The notes under the pieces were generated by a model. It was not told the DNA's origin, did no database searches, and saw only the letters and a program-made list of their open reading frames with translations. From Terriglobales bacterium (lineage in GTDB: Bacteria; Acidobacteriota; Terriglobia; Terriglobales; Acidobacteriaceae), in NCBI GenBank assembly GCA_035561515.1, contig DATMXP010000040.1, positions 62,001-126,000 on the forward strand: 64,000 nucleotides of DNA, in the 5' to 3' direction. Made by a program: the position numbers and the translations under genes. Below are positions 26,652 through 49,570 of this stretch, piece after piece (positions within the stretch are counted from its first letter, which is position 1; the number at the start of each line of letters is the position of its first letter).

Positions 26652-27926
26652 ATGGCTACCAGTCCGCTTCCACGCACCGAGTCCTCGATTCGCCCGCACT
26701 CGGAATGGTTTGTGCACGATCTTCTTAAGCTTCAGAAAGCCGCGCAAGCCATCAGTTCTACGCTCGACCTCGACGAACTTCTAAACAAGATCGTCAACGA
26801 AGTGGCCGCCTGGTTCGACTGTATCGAGAGTTCCATCTGGCTTCATGACGAGTCCACCAACGAGATGGTCCTCGCCGCCGTGAAGGGATGCACCATGTTC
26901 ACCTGCTGCGGCGCGCGTCTCAAAGTCGGTGAGCAGGGAATGATCGGCCACGTAGCCGCAGTAGGCACCACCTGCTACGCCCCGGACGTCAGCAGAGACC
27001 CCTACTTCGTTCCCTGCGAAGAAGGCACGAACAGCGAACTCGATATCCCGCTGAAGATCGGCAACAAGGTCATCGGCGTCTTCTCGACCGCGCACCACGA
27101 ACTCGATGGCTTTCCACTCAGCCAGCGCCGGTTGCTGGAAGTTCTCTGCCAGCACATCGCCGTCGCCGTTCAGAATGCTCAGGCATATCGCAGCGAAGTG
27201 CGCCAACGGGAACAGATGCAGCGCGAAGCCCGAGAGGCCCGTGTCATCCAGCAGTCGCTGCTGCCGAAATCTTCCCCGTTCCTCCCCGGACTCGCGCTTG
27301 AAGCCACCAGCGTCCCCGCCGGAGAAGTCGGTGGAGACTGGTACGACTACATCGATCTCGGCGACGACCGCTGGGGCATCGTGCTCGCCGATGTCGCCGG
27401 TAAGGGCATGGCCGCCGCGCTCCTGATGTCCGCCACCCGCGGCATTCTGCGTTCGCTCGCGCGCGCTTACGATAGCCCCGCCGAAGTCTTAAGCAAGTTG
27501 AATCTCGTTCTCCGCGACGACTTCCCCGCCGGACGCTACGTCACCATGATTTACGGTGTGCTCGACGCACAACGCCATACAATTACCTTCGCCAACGCGG
27601 GACACCCTCACCCGGTGCTCGTTCACGGCTCCGAAGCGAAGTCCATCGATGCCGGTTCCGGTCTCCCCCTCGGACTTGCCGAAACGCTCTATAACGACCA
27701 CGTCGTGGAACTCGCACACGGCAACAAAGTGGTCTTCTATACCGATGGCATTAGTGAAGCGGAAGACCGGAAACAGGACGAATTCGGCACCCGCCGCATT
27801 TGCGAGCACATGCTTCAGCCGCACGCGTCAGCCGATAGTCTGCTCAAGGCCGCCTGCGCTCATTCGCCCGGGCCGCCAGCGGACGACGCAACCGTCATCC
27901 TCCTCCGTTGCACTGCAACGGCCTAG
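26652..27926 (+). CDS. GAF-domain PP2C/SpoIIE-type serine phosphatase
   Basis: The 424-residue protein has a GAF sensor at about residues 30-175 (LDLDELLNKIVNEVAAWFDC; VGEQGMIGHVAAVG) and a SpoIIE/RsbU phosphatase domain from about 200. Metal ligands lie in EVGGDWYDYIDLG, DVAGKGMAAALLMSATRG and the final PADDATVILLR. The linker carries the usual QREAREARVIQQSLLPKSSP helix. Such enzymes dephosphorylate STAS anti-sigma antagonists in response to a signal. Two closely spaced cysteines (MFTCCGARLK) in the GAF pocket may matter for sensing; that is inference. Confidence 0.9.
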   Translation: MATSPLPRTESSIRPHSEWFVHDLLKLQKAAQAISSTLDLDELLNKIVNEVAAWFDCIESSIWLHDESTNEMVLAAVKGCTMFTCCGARLKVGEQGMIGHVAAVGTTCYAPDVSRDPYFVPCEEGTNSELDIPLKIGNKVIGVFSTAHHELDGFPLSQRRLLEVLCQHIAVAVQNAQAYRSEVRQREQMQREAREARVIQQSLLPKSSPFLPGLALEATSVPAGEVGGDWYDYIDLGDDRWGIVLADVAGKGMAAALLMSATRGILRSLARAYDSPAEVLSKLNLVLRDDFPAGRYVTMIYGVLDAQRHTITFANAGHPHPVLVHGSEAKSIDAGSGLPLGLAETLYNDHVVELAHGNKVVFYTDGISEAEDRKQDEFGTRRICEHMLQPHASADSLLKAACAHSPGPPADDATVILLRCTATA

Positions 27927-39527: not shown

Positions 39528-39728
39528 ATGGAACAAGGAACAGTGAAGTGGTTCAACGACGCTAAAGGCTACGGCTTCATCACCCGCCAGAATGGTGAAG
39601 ACGTCTTCGTCCACTACTCGGCGATCCAGACACAGGGCTTCCGCAGCCTGCAGGAAGGTCAGGCGGTGCAGTTCGAAGTCGTCAAGGGACCAAAGGGCTG
39701 GCAGGCCGAAAACGTCCAGGTACTCTGA
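39528..39728 (+). CDS. Cold-shock domain protein (CspA family)
   Basis: The 66-residue protein is one cold-shock domain: [20 protein letters not shown] carries RNP1 (KGYGFIT), and VFVHYSAI is RNP2. Cold-shock proteins bind single-stranded nucleic acids and act as RNA chaperones. The ATG at 39528 gives the normal length; a TTG four codons earlier is in frame but too close to GGAAG. An unusually long, AT- and G-rich upstream region precedes it, and a terminator with a UUCG-type loop follows. Confidence 0.95.
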
Positions 39729-39746: not shown

Positions 39747-39769
39747 CGGCGGCTTCGGCCGCCGATTTT
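39747..39769 (+). terminator. Terminator after the cold-shock gene
   Basis: CGGCGGC, a TTCG tetraloop and GCCGCCG are followed by ATTTTGC. The UUCG loop is exceptionally stable. Confidence 0.85.
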
Positions 39770-39887
39770 GCTTGGGGCCTACGTCGTTCGTAACTTCGAA
39801 CGAAAGTGCACCTTCGGTAACTCCGCCGTCGTAACCTGTTCGTAATTACCCCATCGTCCTACAGTGTCATCTGCTGTAGGAGACTTT

Positions 39888-42503
39888 ATGTCAGCCGCGC
39901 TTGCCCTCTCCCCAACGGACAAGCTAACCGGTGCGAAGGCATTCGCCCGTAGCTTGAATATCCTGCTGAAGCATGTGCGCCTGTACGGATTGGCCCACAA
40001 GCGGTCCACCGATCAGTTCGATCAAGCCTGGACCTTGTTACAGTCTGTCCTCACGGGCGACAACGGATTCCTCCTCGGAATCTCCGGCGACAAGTTACTG
40101 CTCGATGGTGTTCCGCTCGAGTCCGGCCCCGCCGAGCAATCGTTCGCAAAAATGCTCGCCGCCTCCGGCATCGCCAGCATTCACTTTTCAAATTCGGTGA
40201 CCGCCAACGACCTGCAGAGCATCGTCACAACATTCGCCAATTCGCGCCCTTCCGAACTGCTCGCTAATCTGCAATCGATCGCGCAGCATTCGCCAACACA
40301 AGGCGTGAAAGTAAACGAAGTCCGCTTCGTCCCGCACGACAGCGTGCATGACGATGCTGCCGTTCCAATGGCGAGCCTCATCACCGCGAACACGATCAAC
40401 GAACTCGGACCGCAAGTCACCGACTGGATTAAAGATCCGAAGAAACTGCTCCAGTTGATCTCCGCAGCCGAAGGCACAAAAGGCGGTCACGACGACGGAA
40501 CCGGAAATGGCAACGGTGAACTTCAGGCGGAAATCGTTCCCGCCTACGAAAATCATCCTGCGCCGCTCGAAGAAGACGAAGTCATCAGCGTCATCCGCTT
40601 CATGACTCGCATGGGCACATTGAAACAGCACTGCGAGTCAGCGCCGGATTCGGCGACCATGCAGCACGAACTCTCCGAGCTCACGCCGAGCGCTCACAGC
40701 GCGCTTTACCAGATGCTGTTCAATACCGTCGCGAACTCCTTCGACGGACAAGATTCGCCCGACCTGCTCAAGTTGGCCGAGCACCTGGCGATTCGCTTCG
40801 CCGTCGAGAGCTTCGAGCGCGGCGAAGTGAAGATCAACGCTGTCCAGCAGATGATCGAGCGCCTGAACAAGGAACTCGAGTCGCTGCGCAGCGTGCTGCA
40901 TTCGCATGAAGACCAGATGTCTCGCGCAGGCCTTCTCGTCGAAAGCCAGTCGGAGATTCTCGACCGGCAGTTCTGGGCTTCCGTTCCCGATTGGGGCAAA
41001 AAGAACGTCCTGCTCTCGGAAGATAGTTGGTGCATTCCTGCCCGCAATGTTCGCAGCTATGTCGAGCAGTTGATCGAGCGTCGCGATGGCGACACAGCGA
41101 TCTCCATTCTTGCCAACTTCACTTCCGGCGTCGAAAGCACCGACATGGAAGCTCGCCGCAAAGTCGCAACTGGACTCACGGAACTTGCCGAGCTCTGTGG
41201 TCGCGTCGATCACGGGCTCCTGCAGCAGTGCATCCTGCGCGTCGGACGCCAACTCGCAGCGGAGCAGTCACTCGAGATCCAGACTCTACTCAGCGCCGCC
41301 TTTGTGCGACTCAGCCAGGAAGCAAGCGCCAAGCGCGATTACCCAGCGCTTGAGCAGTCGATGTGCAGCCTCGCGCGTGTCGAGAAGTCGCAGCCGAACC
41401 TTGTGCGCGACATGCGTCCGCGCATATCTGTCCAGAGCCGACTGCACGATTTCGTCGCCGAAGTACATCAGGGCGAAACGCTGCCCAAAGGTCTTGTCGA
41501 CGTGCTTCGTCGCACGCCTGGTCCTGCTGCCGAGGAAATCGCCAGCCAGTTCGCACGTTGCAGCACGCTTCAGGAAACTGAACGTTATCTCGATCTGCTG
41601 AATCAGATCGGCTCGCCGGCAATTGAGCACTTGCGCGAACTGCTGCTGCAAGGACCAGCCGCAGAAGGCATTATCGGCATCGGCGTACTGACGCGCCTCG
41701 ACATCGAACTGATGCTCAATGAGCTGCCAAAGCGGGCTTGTGAATGGTCGCGATTGCAACAGGATTCGGTCGTTCGTCAAATCGCCTCTTCTGGCGCGGA
41801 ACTCCGCGGCGAACTGCTACTGTCTCTGCTTGAGCATCTCGATCCGCTCATCATTCCGGAAGCGATCGACGAGATAGGGCTTTCCGGAAACTCGACTACG
41901 GTCATTTCCCTGCTCGACCTCGCTTCCGGTGAAGGCGCAGCTGCAAGCTCCCAATTTGCGCAGCTAAAGGCTGTGGAAGCTGTCGGTCGTCTGCGCATCA
42001 ACGACGCGGAAGACATGTTGGCCGAAATCATCCAGCAGCGCTCGCTGATAGGCTTCTCGAACGCGCGCGAGCTACGCCTCGCCGCGATGCAGGCACTTCA
42101 GAACATCAATCCGGAGCGCGCGAAACGGTTGTTGGTCAAGTCCGGACTCGACGAGCAGGAACTGAACATCCGTCCGTTGGACGCAACCGATACCAATTGG
42201 CTGCGGCAGCGCCGCTACGAACGCGTCGTGCCGAATACAACCATCAACGCCACCGCAATTACCGCCAAAGGACGTTGCCCAGTTGCGCTTGAGCGCATCT
42301 CGCTCGGTGGCGGACTCGCCGTGCGCAATGGTCGCGGCCAGTTCGGTTCTGAAGCACTCCTCGAGATGCAACTCGGTATGCGTCATTTGCGTAGTCGCGT
42401 GCTGATACGCGAAGCAAATGCCGGTGTGATGTTCGAAATCGCCGATATTGGCATGGATGAGCGGAATCGGCTCAGGAAGCTGATTGCTGCTCAGATGAGA
42501 TAG
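39888..42503 (+). CDS. Large HEAT-like protein of unknown function
   Basis: The 871-residue product has no family I recognise. The N-terminal part contains FARSLNILLKHVRLYGLAHK, and the residues up to about 170 look like a helical domain of the type seen in chemotaxis- or PilZ-linked proteins. The middle is a long series of helical repeats (for example EALVQ-type runs and MLNELPKRACEWSRLQQDSV), consistent with HEAT or armadillo folding. The C-terminal 80 residues (ERISLGGGLAVRNGRGQFGS, then MFEIADIGMDERNRLRKLIA) resemble a degenerate PilZ domain. AGGAG lies 6 bases before the ATG. Confidence 0.6.
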   Translation: MSAALALSPTDKLTGAKAFARSLNILLKHVRLYGLAHKRSTDQFDQAWTLLQSVLTGDNGFLLGISGDKLLLDGVPLESGPAEQSFAKMLAASGIASIHFSNSVTANDLQSIVTTFANSRPSELLANLQSIAQHSPTQGVKVNEVRFVPHDSVHDDAAVPMASLITANTINELGPQVTDWIKDPKKLLQLISAAEGTKGGHDDGTGNGNGELQAEIVPAYENHPAPLEEDEVISVIRFMTRMGTLKQHCESAPDSATMQHELSELTPSAHSALYQMLFNTVANSFDGQDSPDLLKLAEHLAIRFAVESFERGEVKINAVQQMIERLNKELESLRSVLHSHEDQMSRAGLLVESQSEILDRQFWASVPDWGKKNVLLSEDSWCIPARNVRSYVEQLIERRDGDTAISILANFTSGVESTDMEARRKVATGLTELAELCGRVDHGLLQQCILRVGRQLAAEQSLEIQTLLSAAFVRLSQEASAKRDYPALEQSMCSLARVEKSQPNLVRDMRPRISVQSRLHDFVAEVHQGETLPKGLVDVLRRTPGPAAEEIASQFARCSTLQETERYLDLLNQIGSPAIEHLRELLLQGPAAEGIIGIGVLTRLDIELMLNELPKRACEWSRLQQDSVVRQIASSGAELRGELLLSLLEHLDPLIIPEAIDEIGLSGNSTTVISLLDLASGEGAAASSQFAQLKAVEAVGRLRINDAEDMLAEIIQQRSLIGFSNARELRLAAMQALQNINPERAKRLLVKSGLDEQELNIRPLDATDTNWLRQRRYERVVPNTTINATAITAKGRCPVALERISLGGGLAVRNGRGQFGSEALLEMQLGMRHLRSRVLIREANAGVMFEIADIGMDERNRLRKLIAAQMR

Positions 42504-42505
42504 CG

Positions 42506-43513
42506 CTAGTAGCCGGCTTTCTTGTCGACCGTTCCGAGAAGCGGCATGCCGGCGCGATAACGGCGCAGGTTGTCGCTGAGCAGCTTGTATTGCCGCTGCC
42601 AAAGTTTGCGAGCGAAGCCGGCTTGATGAGGCGTAATCAGGACGTTATCCAAATCCCACAGCGGAGAGTTTTCCGGTAGCGGTTCTGTCTCGAACACATC
42701 GAGCGCCGCGCCAGCAATTCGTTTCTGCTGAAGTACTTCGACCAAAGCCTTCTCGTCGACAAGAGCGCCGCGCGCAACGTTAATGAGAAATGCATCTGGT
42801 TTAATCTGCGAGAGTGCTTCCCTGTCGATCAGCTTGTCGGTCGCGCCGGTCAAAGGCGCACTCACCACGACGAAATCTCCGTCCTTCAGCGCACGATGCA
42901 AATCCTTCGGTCCGAAGACTCGATGCTGTGCTCGCTCCGGGTCGCCATCCGGAAGCCAGTCAACGCCCTTCTTAGGATTCGCTCGCACAGCAAACACGCG
43001 CATGCCAAGCGTCGCTGCCACGCGCGCCACCTCATGACCAATGGAGCCGACACCAATCAGAACGAGAGTCGCGTCCCGTAGCTCCTGCGGCGAATCAGCT
43101 CCGCCAAGATCCTCTTTGCCCCACTCGTGCCTGGTCTGAGCGCGAACCGCAGCTGGTAGTCGCTTAGCGAGGGCGAACATCAACGCGAGAACATGCTCGG
43201 CGACAGGAAGTCCGTGAACTGCGCGCGCATTCGTCAGAATGATGTCGCTGTTGACGATCTCCGGAATCAGCAACTGATGCACAGCAGCGGTGGTTGAATG
43301 AATCCAGCGCAACCGCGGAGCCAGACGAACCTGCTCGGGACGCAGCGAAGACGTAACGATCACATCTGCGTCCCGAATGTCCTGCTCAATGTTGTCGTAC
43401 GAGCGCAGGTACACGAACTCGACATCAGAAAACTCGGCCCGCAGTTTTTCCAGAAACCAGTCAGGCGCCGTCCAATGCGCCGCGCGATGTTTAAGAATGA
43501 TGACGACTTTCAT
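42506..43513 (-). CDS. D-2-hydroxyacid dehydrogenase (NAD-dependent)
   Basis: The 335-residue protein belongs to the D-isomer specific 2-hydroxyacid dehydrogenases. It has the Rossmann motif [20 protein letters not shown] near residue 150, the catalytic Arg in [17 protein letters not shown] near 247, Glu in [13 protein letters not shown] and His in ITPHQAGFA near 300. Members reduce 2-keto acids such as glyoxylate, hydroxypyruvate or phosphohydroxypyruvate; the substrate is not decided by sequence. It overlaps gpmI by 4 bases. Confidence 0.9.
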
Positions 43514-47574: not shown

Positions 47575-48993
47575 TTAGTTCTTCTTTAGGGCTATCACTG
47601 TGATGTCGTCGTGCTGTCGAATGCCGCTTGACCATGCGGTGACTTCGGCGATCACGCGGTCGAGAATGTCTTGAGCGGAGCCGCTGCAAGCTGCGGCAAT
47701 CGCGGCACGGAGGCGCTCCTCCCCGAATTCCTCGCCGCTGGAGTTCAGTGCTTCCGTTACCCCGTCGGTGTATGCGAACAGCACATCGCCCGTGTTGAGG
47801 GCGCATGCCTGCTCGGTGAAGTTGGCTTCAGGCAAGACGCCCAGAACTGGGCCGCTGCTATCCAGCATCTGGAACTCTGCGGTAGCGGCGCTGTAAAGGA
47901 TCGGCGGATTGTGACCGGCATTCACGAAGCGAACGCCATTTTGGCGCTGGTCGAGTTGGGCATAGAAGAAAGTTACGTATCGAGCGGTGGATACCGATCC
48001 GCTGATCAATCGGTTTAGAAGTCCCACCATTTCCCCGAGACTGTGCGTTCCGTTGCTGCCGAGGAGTTGTCCGCGAAGCGATGCCTGCACTACGGACATG
48101 AGCAGAGCAGCGGAAATCCCTTTACCGGCGACATCGGCGATGGCGATTCCTGTAGAGTGTTCGCCCACGGAGACGAAATCGTAGTAATCGCCTCCCACCT
48201 GTTGGGCTGGCTTGCAGAATCCGCAAAGATCGAAATCGCGCATGGTTGGCGCACGATGGGGAAGGAGGCTTCGCTGGACCTCGGCAGCGAGTTCCAGTTC
48301 GGCTTGAAGACGCTGATGCTCGACCAGGCGTTCGAGCAGTTTCGCGTTTTCGATTATTAGCGCGAGTTGTCCCGCCACGCCCTTTAAGGCCTGCTGATCA
48401 CGCGGGCTGAAGCGCCCGTAGTTGCTCTCCCCCAGACACAGAATGCCAATCAACTCGTTGCGCGTTTTCAACTGGACGAGTAGCGACGTTCGGGTGCGCT
48501 CCAGCGTTTCCCTTTCGCGCATGCGCTTCTCGAACACTTCACGCGGCGCATCCTGGAGCGCGTCGGCCCAAGCCTTCAGGTCGCCGGCGTCGACGGAGAA
48601 AGGTGAGTCAAGTCCGCGAAGACGCCGAACGACGAAAGCGTCGCGCGCAAGGGCCGGGGTGGATCCATCGCCCTCGCCCGGAATGGTGGAGATCCGACAC
48701 GGATAGTTGCCGGTTTCGTCATCGCGGATGAACAGGCTGACTGCTTTCGACGGGAATGTCGCGTTTACGGTGCGGATCAGTGATTGGAAGAGGTCCTCGA
48801 CGGATGTCGCCCTGCGGACGGCTTGCGCAAGATCGAGGCTCGGCACAGCGCCGAGAATCTGTTCCGCCGGAGATGGCTGGTGGTCGCGCTTTAGCCTCAA
48901 GCTCAGGAAGCTTAATCCCGCGGCGAATCTTGCGAGCAAGCGATGACTGCCGTGTTCGCTGTCGGGCCGTCGCGTTCGGCGGAATAACTTCAC
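47575..48993 (-). CDS. GAF-domain PP2C/SpoIIE-type serine phosphatase
   Basis: The 472-residue protein (GTG at 48993, with GGGGA 9 bases upstream) has a GAF domain near residues 60-215 and the SpoIIE domain near 245-470. Key metal-site segments are QVGGDYYDFVSVG, ADVAGKGISAALLMSVVQ and RQHDDITVIALKKN. It is a second, differently arranged paralogue of the protein at 26652: longer N-terminus, a different GAF pocket and no cysteine pair. The frame stays open upstream to 49248 but without a credible start. Confidence 0.88.
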   Translation of the reverse strand: MKLFRRTRRPDSEHGSHRLLARFAAGLSFLSLRLKRDHQPSPAEQILGAVPSLDLAQAVRRATSVEDLFQSLIRTVNATFPSKAVSLFIRDDETGNYPCRISTIPGEGDGSTPALARDAFVVRRLRGLDSPFSVDAGDLKAWADALQDAPREVFEKRMRERETLERTRTSLLVQLKTRNELIGILCLGESNYGRFSPRDQQALKGVAGQLALIIENAKLLERLVEHQRLQAELELAAEVQRSLLPHRAPTMRDFDLCGFCKPAQQVGGDYYDFVSVGEHSTGIAIADVAGKGISAALLMSVVQASLRGQLLGSNGTHSLGEMVGLLNRLISGSVSTARYVTFFYAQLDQRQNGVRFVNAGHNPPILYSAATAEFQMLDSSGPVLGVLPEANFTEQACALNTGDVLFAYTDGVTEALNSSGEEFGEERLRAAIAAACSGSAQDILDRVIAEVTAWSSGIRQHDDITVIALKKN

Positions 48994-49570
48994 CGGACTT
49001 CTTCCCCATACCGACTGTGCGGTAGCGGCCGCTTGCGTCCCAAAATCGAACACTTTTTGCGAATCTATTGAGTCAAATCGCTGCACATCAATGAGATAGC
49101 AAACAGGATGCCATCGGCACGTGTGAGTTGGACGGATGCGAGGGCTCTTTGTTGGTGGAATGTCTACAGATTCTGGATGGCGGCTGGTAAGTTCACGACT
49201 GCCACTCGAAAAGCTAAATGTTCGTCTCCATGGATTGTTGAGAAACACGACAGTGTTTTTACTTAGCTGAGCTCAACACGTCACTGCTTTCCGTTATGCG
49301 CCATTACGCGCCAATCTCTTGTGTTTTCAGCCAGTTGCGCTAAATTTCCACATTGATGTTTTATGCGCCCGACCCTTTTAACATTGACTCTTTAGGAAAA
49401 TTGCCCTAAGATCGGTAGTTTCGTCGGGGACTCTTGGTCGTACTGGTAAGGTCAAGCAAAGTCAAGACTTAGGGCCCATCCACTGAATCCATTTTCGGCC
49501 CCGGTGAATCCAATCAGTACCAACGGGTATTTTCTACCTTTCTAATCAAGCGAGGCAGGACGAATTAATC
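48994..49570. other. Intergenic region, AT-rich in its right half
   Basis: About 575 bases lie between the leftward phosphatase gene and the rightward 75-residue gene. From about 49310 the sequence turns AT-rich. It contains a good promoter at 49384 (below). I see no hairpin repeats, tRNA or protein-like frames. Confidence 0.5.
49384..49412 (+). promoter_or_regulatory. Strong sigma-70 promoter candidate
   Basis: TTGACT (49384-49389), a spacer of exactly 17 bases and TAAGAT (49407-49412) make one of the best -35/-10 pairs in the window. The start codon of the 75-residue gene is about 160 bases downstream, leaving a long 5' leader. Confidence 0.6.

Follow-up and report, generated by a model that had tools for sequence, protein, structure and literature searches.

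The analysis points to a family of scaffold-like proteins that join HEAT-type repeats to a C-terminal PilZ domain (hereafter HEAT-PilZ) and whose abundance is, as we consider fairly probable, held low by limited translation; in one clade of relatives this would be achieved by an AUU or AUC start codon, subject, by analogy, to discrimination by IF3. The gene at the origin of this work lies in a 64,000-nucleotide stretch of a Terriglobales genome (contig DATMXP010000040.1), the whole of which we call the window. The computation supports the domain architecture of the protein, the existence of its orthologue family and the AUU/AUC start in one clade of this family. The window gene itself begins with ATG and is not a member of the non-canonical-start class, so that the start-codon argument concerns its relatives. 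The features of the locus are collected in Table 1.

Table 1. Features of the HEAT-PilZ locus (positions in the window).
Feature	Position	Strand	Basis
Cold-shock domain protein, upstream neighbour	39531..39728	+	CSD, E 3.4e-31
Terminator-like hairpin 3' of the cold-shock gene	39747..39764	+	Hairpin scan; number of sites near chance
Predicted hairpin, 3' arm overlapping the Shine-Dalgarno (SD)	39857..39881	+	9-10 pairs predicted, in one genome only
Shine-Dalgarno AGGAG, 5 nt ahead of ATG	39878..39882	+	Sequence and rule-based start call
CDS of the 871-aa HEAT-PilZ protein (P0001)	39888..42503	+	ORF translation and orthologues
N-terminal alpha/beta domain, about residues 1-200	39888..40487	+	AlphaFold model
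Helical solenoid (HEAT-like body), residues 352-761	40941..42170	+	Model, VIA-align, HEAT_2 in orthologues
PilZ-type barrel, residues 772-871	42201..42500	+	VIA-align match and PilZ in 34/42 orthologues
RxxxR motif, R775-R779 (RRYER)	42210..42224	+	Both Arg in 42/42 orthologues
DxSxxG remnant RISLGG, residues 803-808	42294..42311	+	D lost; S805 and G808 kept

The first-pass annotation, made from the sequence of the window, had described an 871-residue protein with a strong ribosome binding site, standing alone and belonging to no recognisable family. Translation reproduces this frame up to its stop, and AGGAG stands 5 nt ahead of its ATG. Among 60 genomes of the window's bacterial family (one per genus), 30, the window's own included, hold matches at E<=0.001, many of them nearly full-length, with 39-48% identity and without internal stops; this conservation indicates that the ORF is a real gene. 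A match is also present in 44 of 200 genomes of the order and in 69 of 250 genomes of the class, and tblastn with the window protein against the plasmid collection gave zero matches. The gene does stand alone: the cold-shock gene on the same strand ends 160 nt upstream, and the next ORF downstream (42506-43513) is on the opposite strand. The terminator-like hairpin behind the cold-shock gene is weak, a scan of the region giving 4 such sites against 3.5 in shuffles. Elsewhere in the window, at 26652-27926 and 47575-49248, we noticed by eye two SpoIIE/PP2C-like proteins (VGGDWYDY, VGGDYYDF).

As to the family, the earlier statement is right for the single sequence but not for its relatives. Searched alone, the window protein finds zero matches in NCBIfam and zero among PDB sequences; in Pfam it gives sub-threshold rows only, the top one being HEAT_2 (E 0.008; 16.9 bits, under the cut-off of 27.7), and a PilZ (PF07238) row is absent at E<=10, a range in which the HMMER filters drop most rows above 0.1. 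By contrast Pfam, run on each of 42 orthologues, recognises at E<=1 HEAT_2 in all 42 (best 2.4e-10), PilZ PF07238 in 34 (best 1e-8) and HEAT_PBS in 30. The family thus resembles HEAT-repeat scaffolds by this profile and by the solenoid of the model described below; it differs from them in that the window protein alone stays under the Pfam cut-off.

An AlphaFold model of the window protein, built from the 42-sequence alignment, has a mean pLDDT of 82.1 and a pTM of 0.61. Between its N-terminal domain and about residue 228 the chain forms a linker predicted with low confidence. The solenoid is mostly above pLDDT 90, with a secondary structure of stacked helical hairpins from 354 to 759; VIA-align relates the 352-761 segment to armadillo/HEAT-type and designed solenoids at Z 9-11, which indicates only an arrangement that the predicted helices share with them. 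At the C-terminal end, residues 786-870 form a six-stranded barrel plus a helix, and residues 772-871 fit chain 5y4r_D with Z 9.4 and an rmsd of 2.2 Å over 98 residues at 21% identity. The predicted fold therefore makes the C-terminal domain a PilZ domain, and in most relatives the profile agrees. Structure prediction, which the first-pass annotation had suggested, thus recovers both the HEAT-like body and the PilZ-like end that it had proposed. Neither of the outcomes that would have told against it, a fold lacking repeats or barrel or a clear family for the window protein, was observed.

The N-terminal domain received no assignment: no Pfam family was found for it in the window stretch, 34 relatives give only scattered weak rows, no Foldseek match was found at E<=0.001, and the best VIA match, at Z 6.5, covers 51 residues of a helical hairpin. 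An N-terminal stretch weakly similar to it (22-26% identity) also occurs in the large open frames of L187-L190 (737-906 aa), with ATG as the start in L188-L190. A Foldseek search of the whole model against the PDB gave TM-scores, normalised to the query length, of 0.10-0.22; the entries listed, cellulose-synthase complexes, karyopherins and importins, were discarded. In one open-access library, judging by titles and abstracts, we found neither a description of a HEAT-plus-PilZ layout nor an account of this family in Acidobacteria or of its start codon; the single paper there that mentions PilZ domains and HEAT repeats together deals with polymorphic toxins.

For the study of the 5' ends, 84,980 species were scanned, each represented by one genome, and the best 80 of 186 relatives were pooled with the loci of the genome searches; redundancy reduction at 93% identity over 150 aa left 89 orthologues. 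Many of them lack ATG, GTG and TTG in the whole interval from the upstream stop to the conserved block, and show an SD, a short spacer and then ATT or ATC (ATY). A rule-based call sorted the 89 into 54 with ATY behind an SD and no canonical codon with an SD, 13 with a canonical codon behind an SD, 18 with a canonical codon without SD, 3 with both and 1 open at a contig end. We defined a core of 50 by removing from the 54 the row L085 and four gp2 rows (ATY at codon -23), and by adding L196 from those with both. L085 was rejected as an ATY start as it sits within a clade of ATG rows. The gp2/Acidoferrales rows, which show ATT at codon -23 and SD-like bases, might have formed a second AUU group; we rejected this too, as ATG or TTG is present at -15/-16, and in L086 a stop lies between.

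The start codon in the core is ATC in 32 rows, ATT in 17 and ATA in 1; the preceding base (-1) is T in 44 and C in 6. An SD of 4-6 nt stands 5-9 nt before ATY in all 50 rows, as required for entry into the class, and it reads AGGAG or AGGAGG in 35. An in-frame stop lies 1-92 codons upstream of ATY. From this stop, or from codon -45, to codon -9, canonical codons are absent in 31 rows; the other 19 have some ATG, GTG or TTG upstream of codon -9, one of them with an SD 4-9 nt ahead. In L194, the ATA row, an in-frame ATG stands two codons earlier, at a seemingly homologous place and 3 nt after an SD-like stretch. This row probably uses that ATG, which would be a reversion, so that the safe count of non-canonical starts is 49 of 50 rather than 50.

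The pattern of substitutions also bears on the start. Mismatches at the three codon positions, taken over 678 pairs from 78 members (some being the same gene fetched twice), are 0.192/0.206/0.541 between ATY and the conserved SLN motif; for the 15 nt preceding ATY the values are 0.452/0.476/0.326. Codon periodicity thus begins at ATY. Columns -11 to -9 and -7 (the SD) and column -1 are conserved, and the A and T of ATY never differ; for the SD and the AT this is partly by construction, both being required for the call, which is not the case for -1. The computation therefore supports AUU/AUC as the putative start codon in one clade of orthologues.

In a tree of 80 proteins (SLN motif onward, quick method, arbitrary root), one clade with an SH-aLRT of 100, to which L026 belongs, unites 43 ATY rows with a row truncated at a contig end; next to this clade, a group of seven rows with ATG or GTG (support 87) contains the window protein. 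At least 9 changes between ATT and ATC occurred within the ATY clade. Such repeated changes fit the maintenance of a non-canonical start, but 9 would also be compatible with drift.

This layout is that of infC. In the window's bacterial family, 29 of 31 infC loci (L101 in the window genome, and L102-L131) could be read, and they start with ATC in 28 cases and ATA in 1, with T (22) or C (7) at -1; at the same loci, the controls rplT and rpmI start with ATG in 25/25 cases each. According to the passages of PMC5472188 on the subject, the infC start codon of E. coli is ATT and that of Streptomyces ATC. The core HEAT-PilZ genes share with infC an SD, a short spacer and then ATC or ATT, with T at -1 in most cases; they differ from it in that they encode no translation factor, which would make them clients of IF3 rather than autoregulators, and in that the window copy has ATG. 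There are further precedents. The sigR gene of Streptomyces has a GTC start and is repressed by IF3, as reported in the same passages, which also state that very few non-canonical bacterial starts have been characterised and that the full set of IF3-repressed genes is still to be found. Like sigR, the HEAT-PilZ gene of the core clade would encode a regulatory protein, with a non-canonical start and a strong SD kept across a clade; unlike sigR, it has AUU/AUC and belongs to another gene family and another phylum, and its repression by IF3 is a prediction. In S. aureus, cvfC1 (AUU) and ccpN (AUA) have an extended SD and give about 10% of the AUG output in poor medium, as described in part of PMC13009471, in the reference list of which pcnB of E. 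coli figures as an AUU case. These two also combine a conserved non-canonical start with a strong SD, but HEAT-PilZ proteins are of about 900 aa with a PilZ domain and are known here from sequence, whereas reporters were used there.

The core clade has a further feature upstream: a dyad TTAC-N4-GTAA or TGAC-N4-GTAA, 61-93 nt before ATY, in 49 of the 50 core rows (e.g. L010, L006, L011), for 0.17 of 50 expected from shuffles; the single miss, L051, has N in that stretch. It was found in none of the 38 other orthologues with upstream sequence; the 39th is L026, which has just 61 nt before the SLN motif. In many core rows a further TTACC and a -10-like TTACNCTTA can be seen by eye after the dyad. 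A role at the RNA level, through pairing of the dyad centre CTCC with the SD, was considered and rejected: the centre varies while TTAC and GTAA stay, which fits better with a protein-bound operator, although the constancy of the arms is partly by construction since the pattern was fixed as TTAC or TGAC and GTAA. The exact form TTACCTCCGTAA occurs at 66 sites in 56 genomes, 27 of them at the HEAT-PilZ gene; the 39 others compare with 29 for a reversed-pattern control, a number near chance, so that we claim no regulon and name no regulator. In the window genome the exact form occurs 3 times, and never at the HEAT-PilZ gene.

Some genes behind the exact TTACCTCCGTAA are nevertheless worth reporting. 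One and the same hybrid histidine kinase gene follows it in six genera (L268, L271, L286, L291, L293, L294); Pfam was run on five of the six, for L271 on a shorter copy, and L293 was judged by its N-terminus. The Pfam scan of 20 downstream proteins also gave a response regulator-TonB_C protein in 2 genera and HD or MASE1-like membrane proteins in 3, single cases of a GGDEF and of a PilZ protein, and TPR, FecR, E3-ligase-like, periplasmic-binding, lipid A acyltransferase, SpoIIE and unassigned proteins; in 6 of 38 stretches TTACCTCCGTAA is inside an ORF. Two observations concern the neighbourhood of the HEAT-PilZ gene itself. A gene like the CHAD-HD gene at L006:4408-5601 (Pfam on the L006 copy) precedes it, with opposite orientation, in 23 of the 50 core loci, whose flanks are short, and in none of the 39 non-core orthologue loci. 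In gp2/Acidoferrales (L065, L072, L078, L086-L089, L091 and L095) a second copy lies upstream of the HEAT-PilZ gene; in most of these second copies the start has no clear SD, but a CTACGGTACTAG-like box is found shortly ahead of it.

Could the AUU/AUC codon be something else than a start, or a start without regulatory meaning? Translation might begin at a canonical codon further in, the preceding 20 codons being untranslated; a gene finder limited to ATG, GTG and TTG would choose such a codon, and in 19 of 101 members (duplicates included) the first canonical codon is placed two codons ahead of the SLN motif. We hold this very improbable: the codon periodicity begins at AUU/AUC, the next in-frame canonical codon is preceded by an SD in 1 of the 101 members, and any codon at or after the SLN motif would cut the most conserved helix (S22, L23, N24, R31, Y33, G34). 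More serious, though still rather unlikely in our opinion, is the idea that AUU/AUC is an old accident, tolerated thanks to the strong SD, which lowers the output but regulates nothing. As the ATY rows form one clade, a single mutation followed by inheritance could suffice, the changes between ATT and ATC are too few to show selection against ATG, and L194 may be just such a mutation. At the opposite, the non-canonical start has been kept in 49 of 50 divergent lineages though one change yields ATG; T stands at -1 in 44 of 50; the third base of ATY differs in 0.22 of the pairs, against 0.54 for the third positions downstream; and ATY co-occurs with the dyad, which the other rows with upstream sequence do not have.

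A third alternative concerns the other end of the protein. According to the relevant part of a review (PMC7288161), RxxxR and DxSxxG contact c-di-GMP, and 5Y4R is entered there under MapZ with c-di-GMP and CheR1. To the first-pass annotation the RxxxR/DxSxxG motif looked broken. This is not so for RxxxR, R775 and R779 being present in 42/42 orthologues, as are R773 and R776; it is correct for DxSxxG, the Asp/Asn position of which is R803 in the window protein and holds 0 D and 1 N among the 42. The canonical c-di-GMP site, as read from the sequences, is thus without one of its defining parts (Asp/Asn). Accordingly the barrel resembles that of MapZ by its superposition on 5y4r_D and by an intact RxxxR, and differs from it by the missing Asp of DxSxxG and by its fusion to a large solenoid and an N-terminal domain. 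The PilZ end could then be a dead sensor that has lost c-di-GMP binding and does no more than contact other proteins where the solenoid ends, a possibility to be taken seriously, although we do not favour it. The loss of the Asp/Asn speaks for it; but the four invariant arginines, together with S805 in 40 of 42 orthologues and G808-G809 in all 42, make a ligand loop over-conserved for a dead site. We hold it probable that the invariant RxxxR arginines allow the PilZ barrel to respond to c-di-GMP or a related ligand.

In the window species the brake, if any, would be different, since upstream of its HEAT-PilZ gene we found neither an ATY start nor a TTAC-N4-GTAA dyad. A predicted hairpin covers the SD there: the 61-nt stretch has an MFE of -15.5 kcal/mol (z -1.76, 10 of 200 shuffles folding as well), and the mean unpaired probability of the SD stretch is 0.04. 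This hairpin, seen in the one genome that represents the genus, is a possible alternative brake on translation. Accessibility of the SD fails to distinguish core from other orthologues, with a mean of 0.33 for the 50 core rows and 0.39 for 38 others.

The mechanism that we propose is then as follows. The HEAT-like alpha-solenoid would hold partner proteins, and the C-terminal PilZ barrel would read c-di-GMP or a related ligand through RxxxR. The protein would be kept scarce at the translation level: in the related clade by AUU/AUC behind a strong SD, the infC layout presumably entailing discrimination by IF3, and in the window species, with its ordinary AUG, by the putative hairpin over the SD. 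By analogy with infC, synthesis in the core clade would be low and IF3-sensitive.

The AUU/AUC start is rare, and may keep the protein scarce and linked to the state of the translation machinery. The HEAT-PilZ family offers 50 non-redundant natural sequences for the study of such starts, with infC as positive control, rplT and rpmI as negative controls, and relatives with AUG or GUG. Gene finders assuming ATG, GTG or TTG miss non-canonical starts, as pointed out in PMC5472188 (same passages); if we are right, they would have misplaced the N-termini of the core-clade HEAT-PilZ proteins. More tentatively, this Terriglobia clade might possess a second-messenger effector under IF3 control, the synthesis of which would go up as free IF3 falls, with the dyad adding a transcriptional layer. 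If this were true, c-di-GMP-type signalling would be tied to the state of translation initiation.
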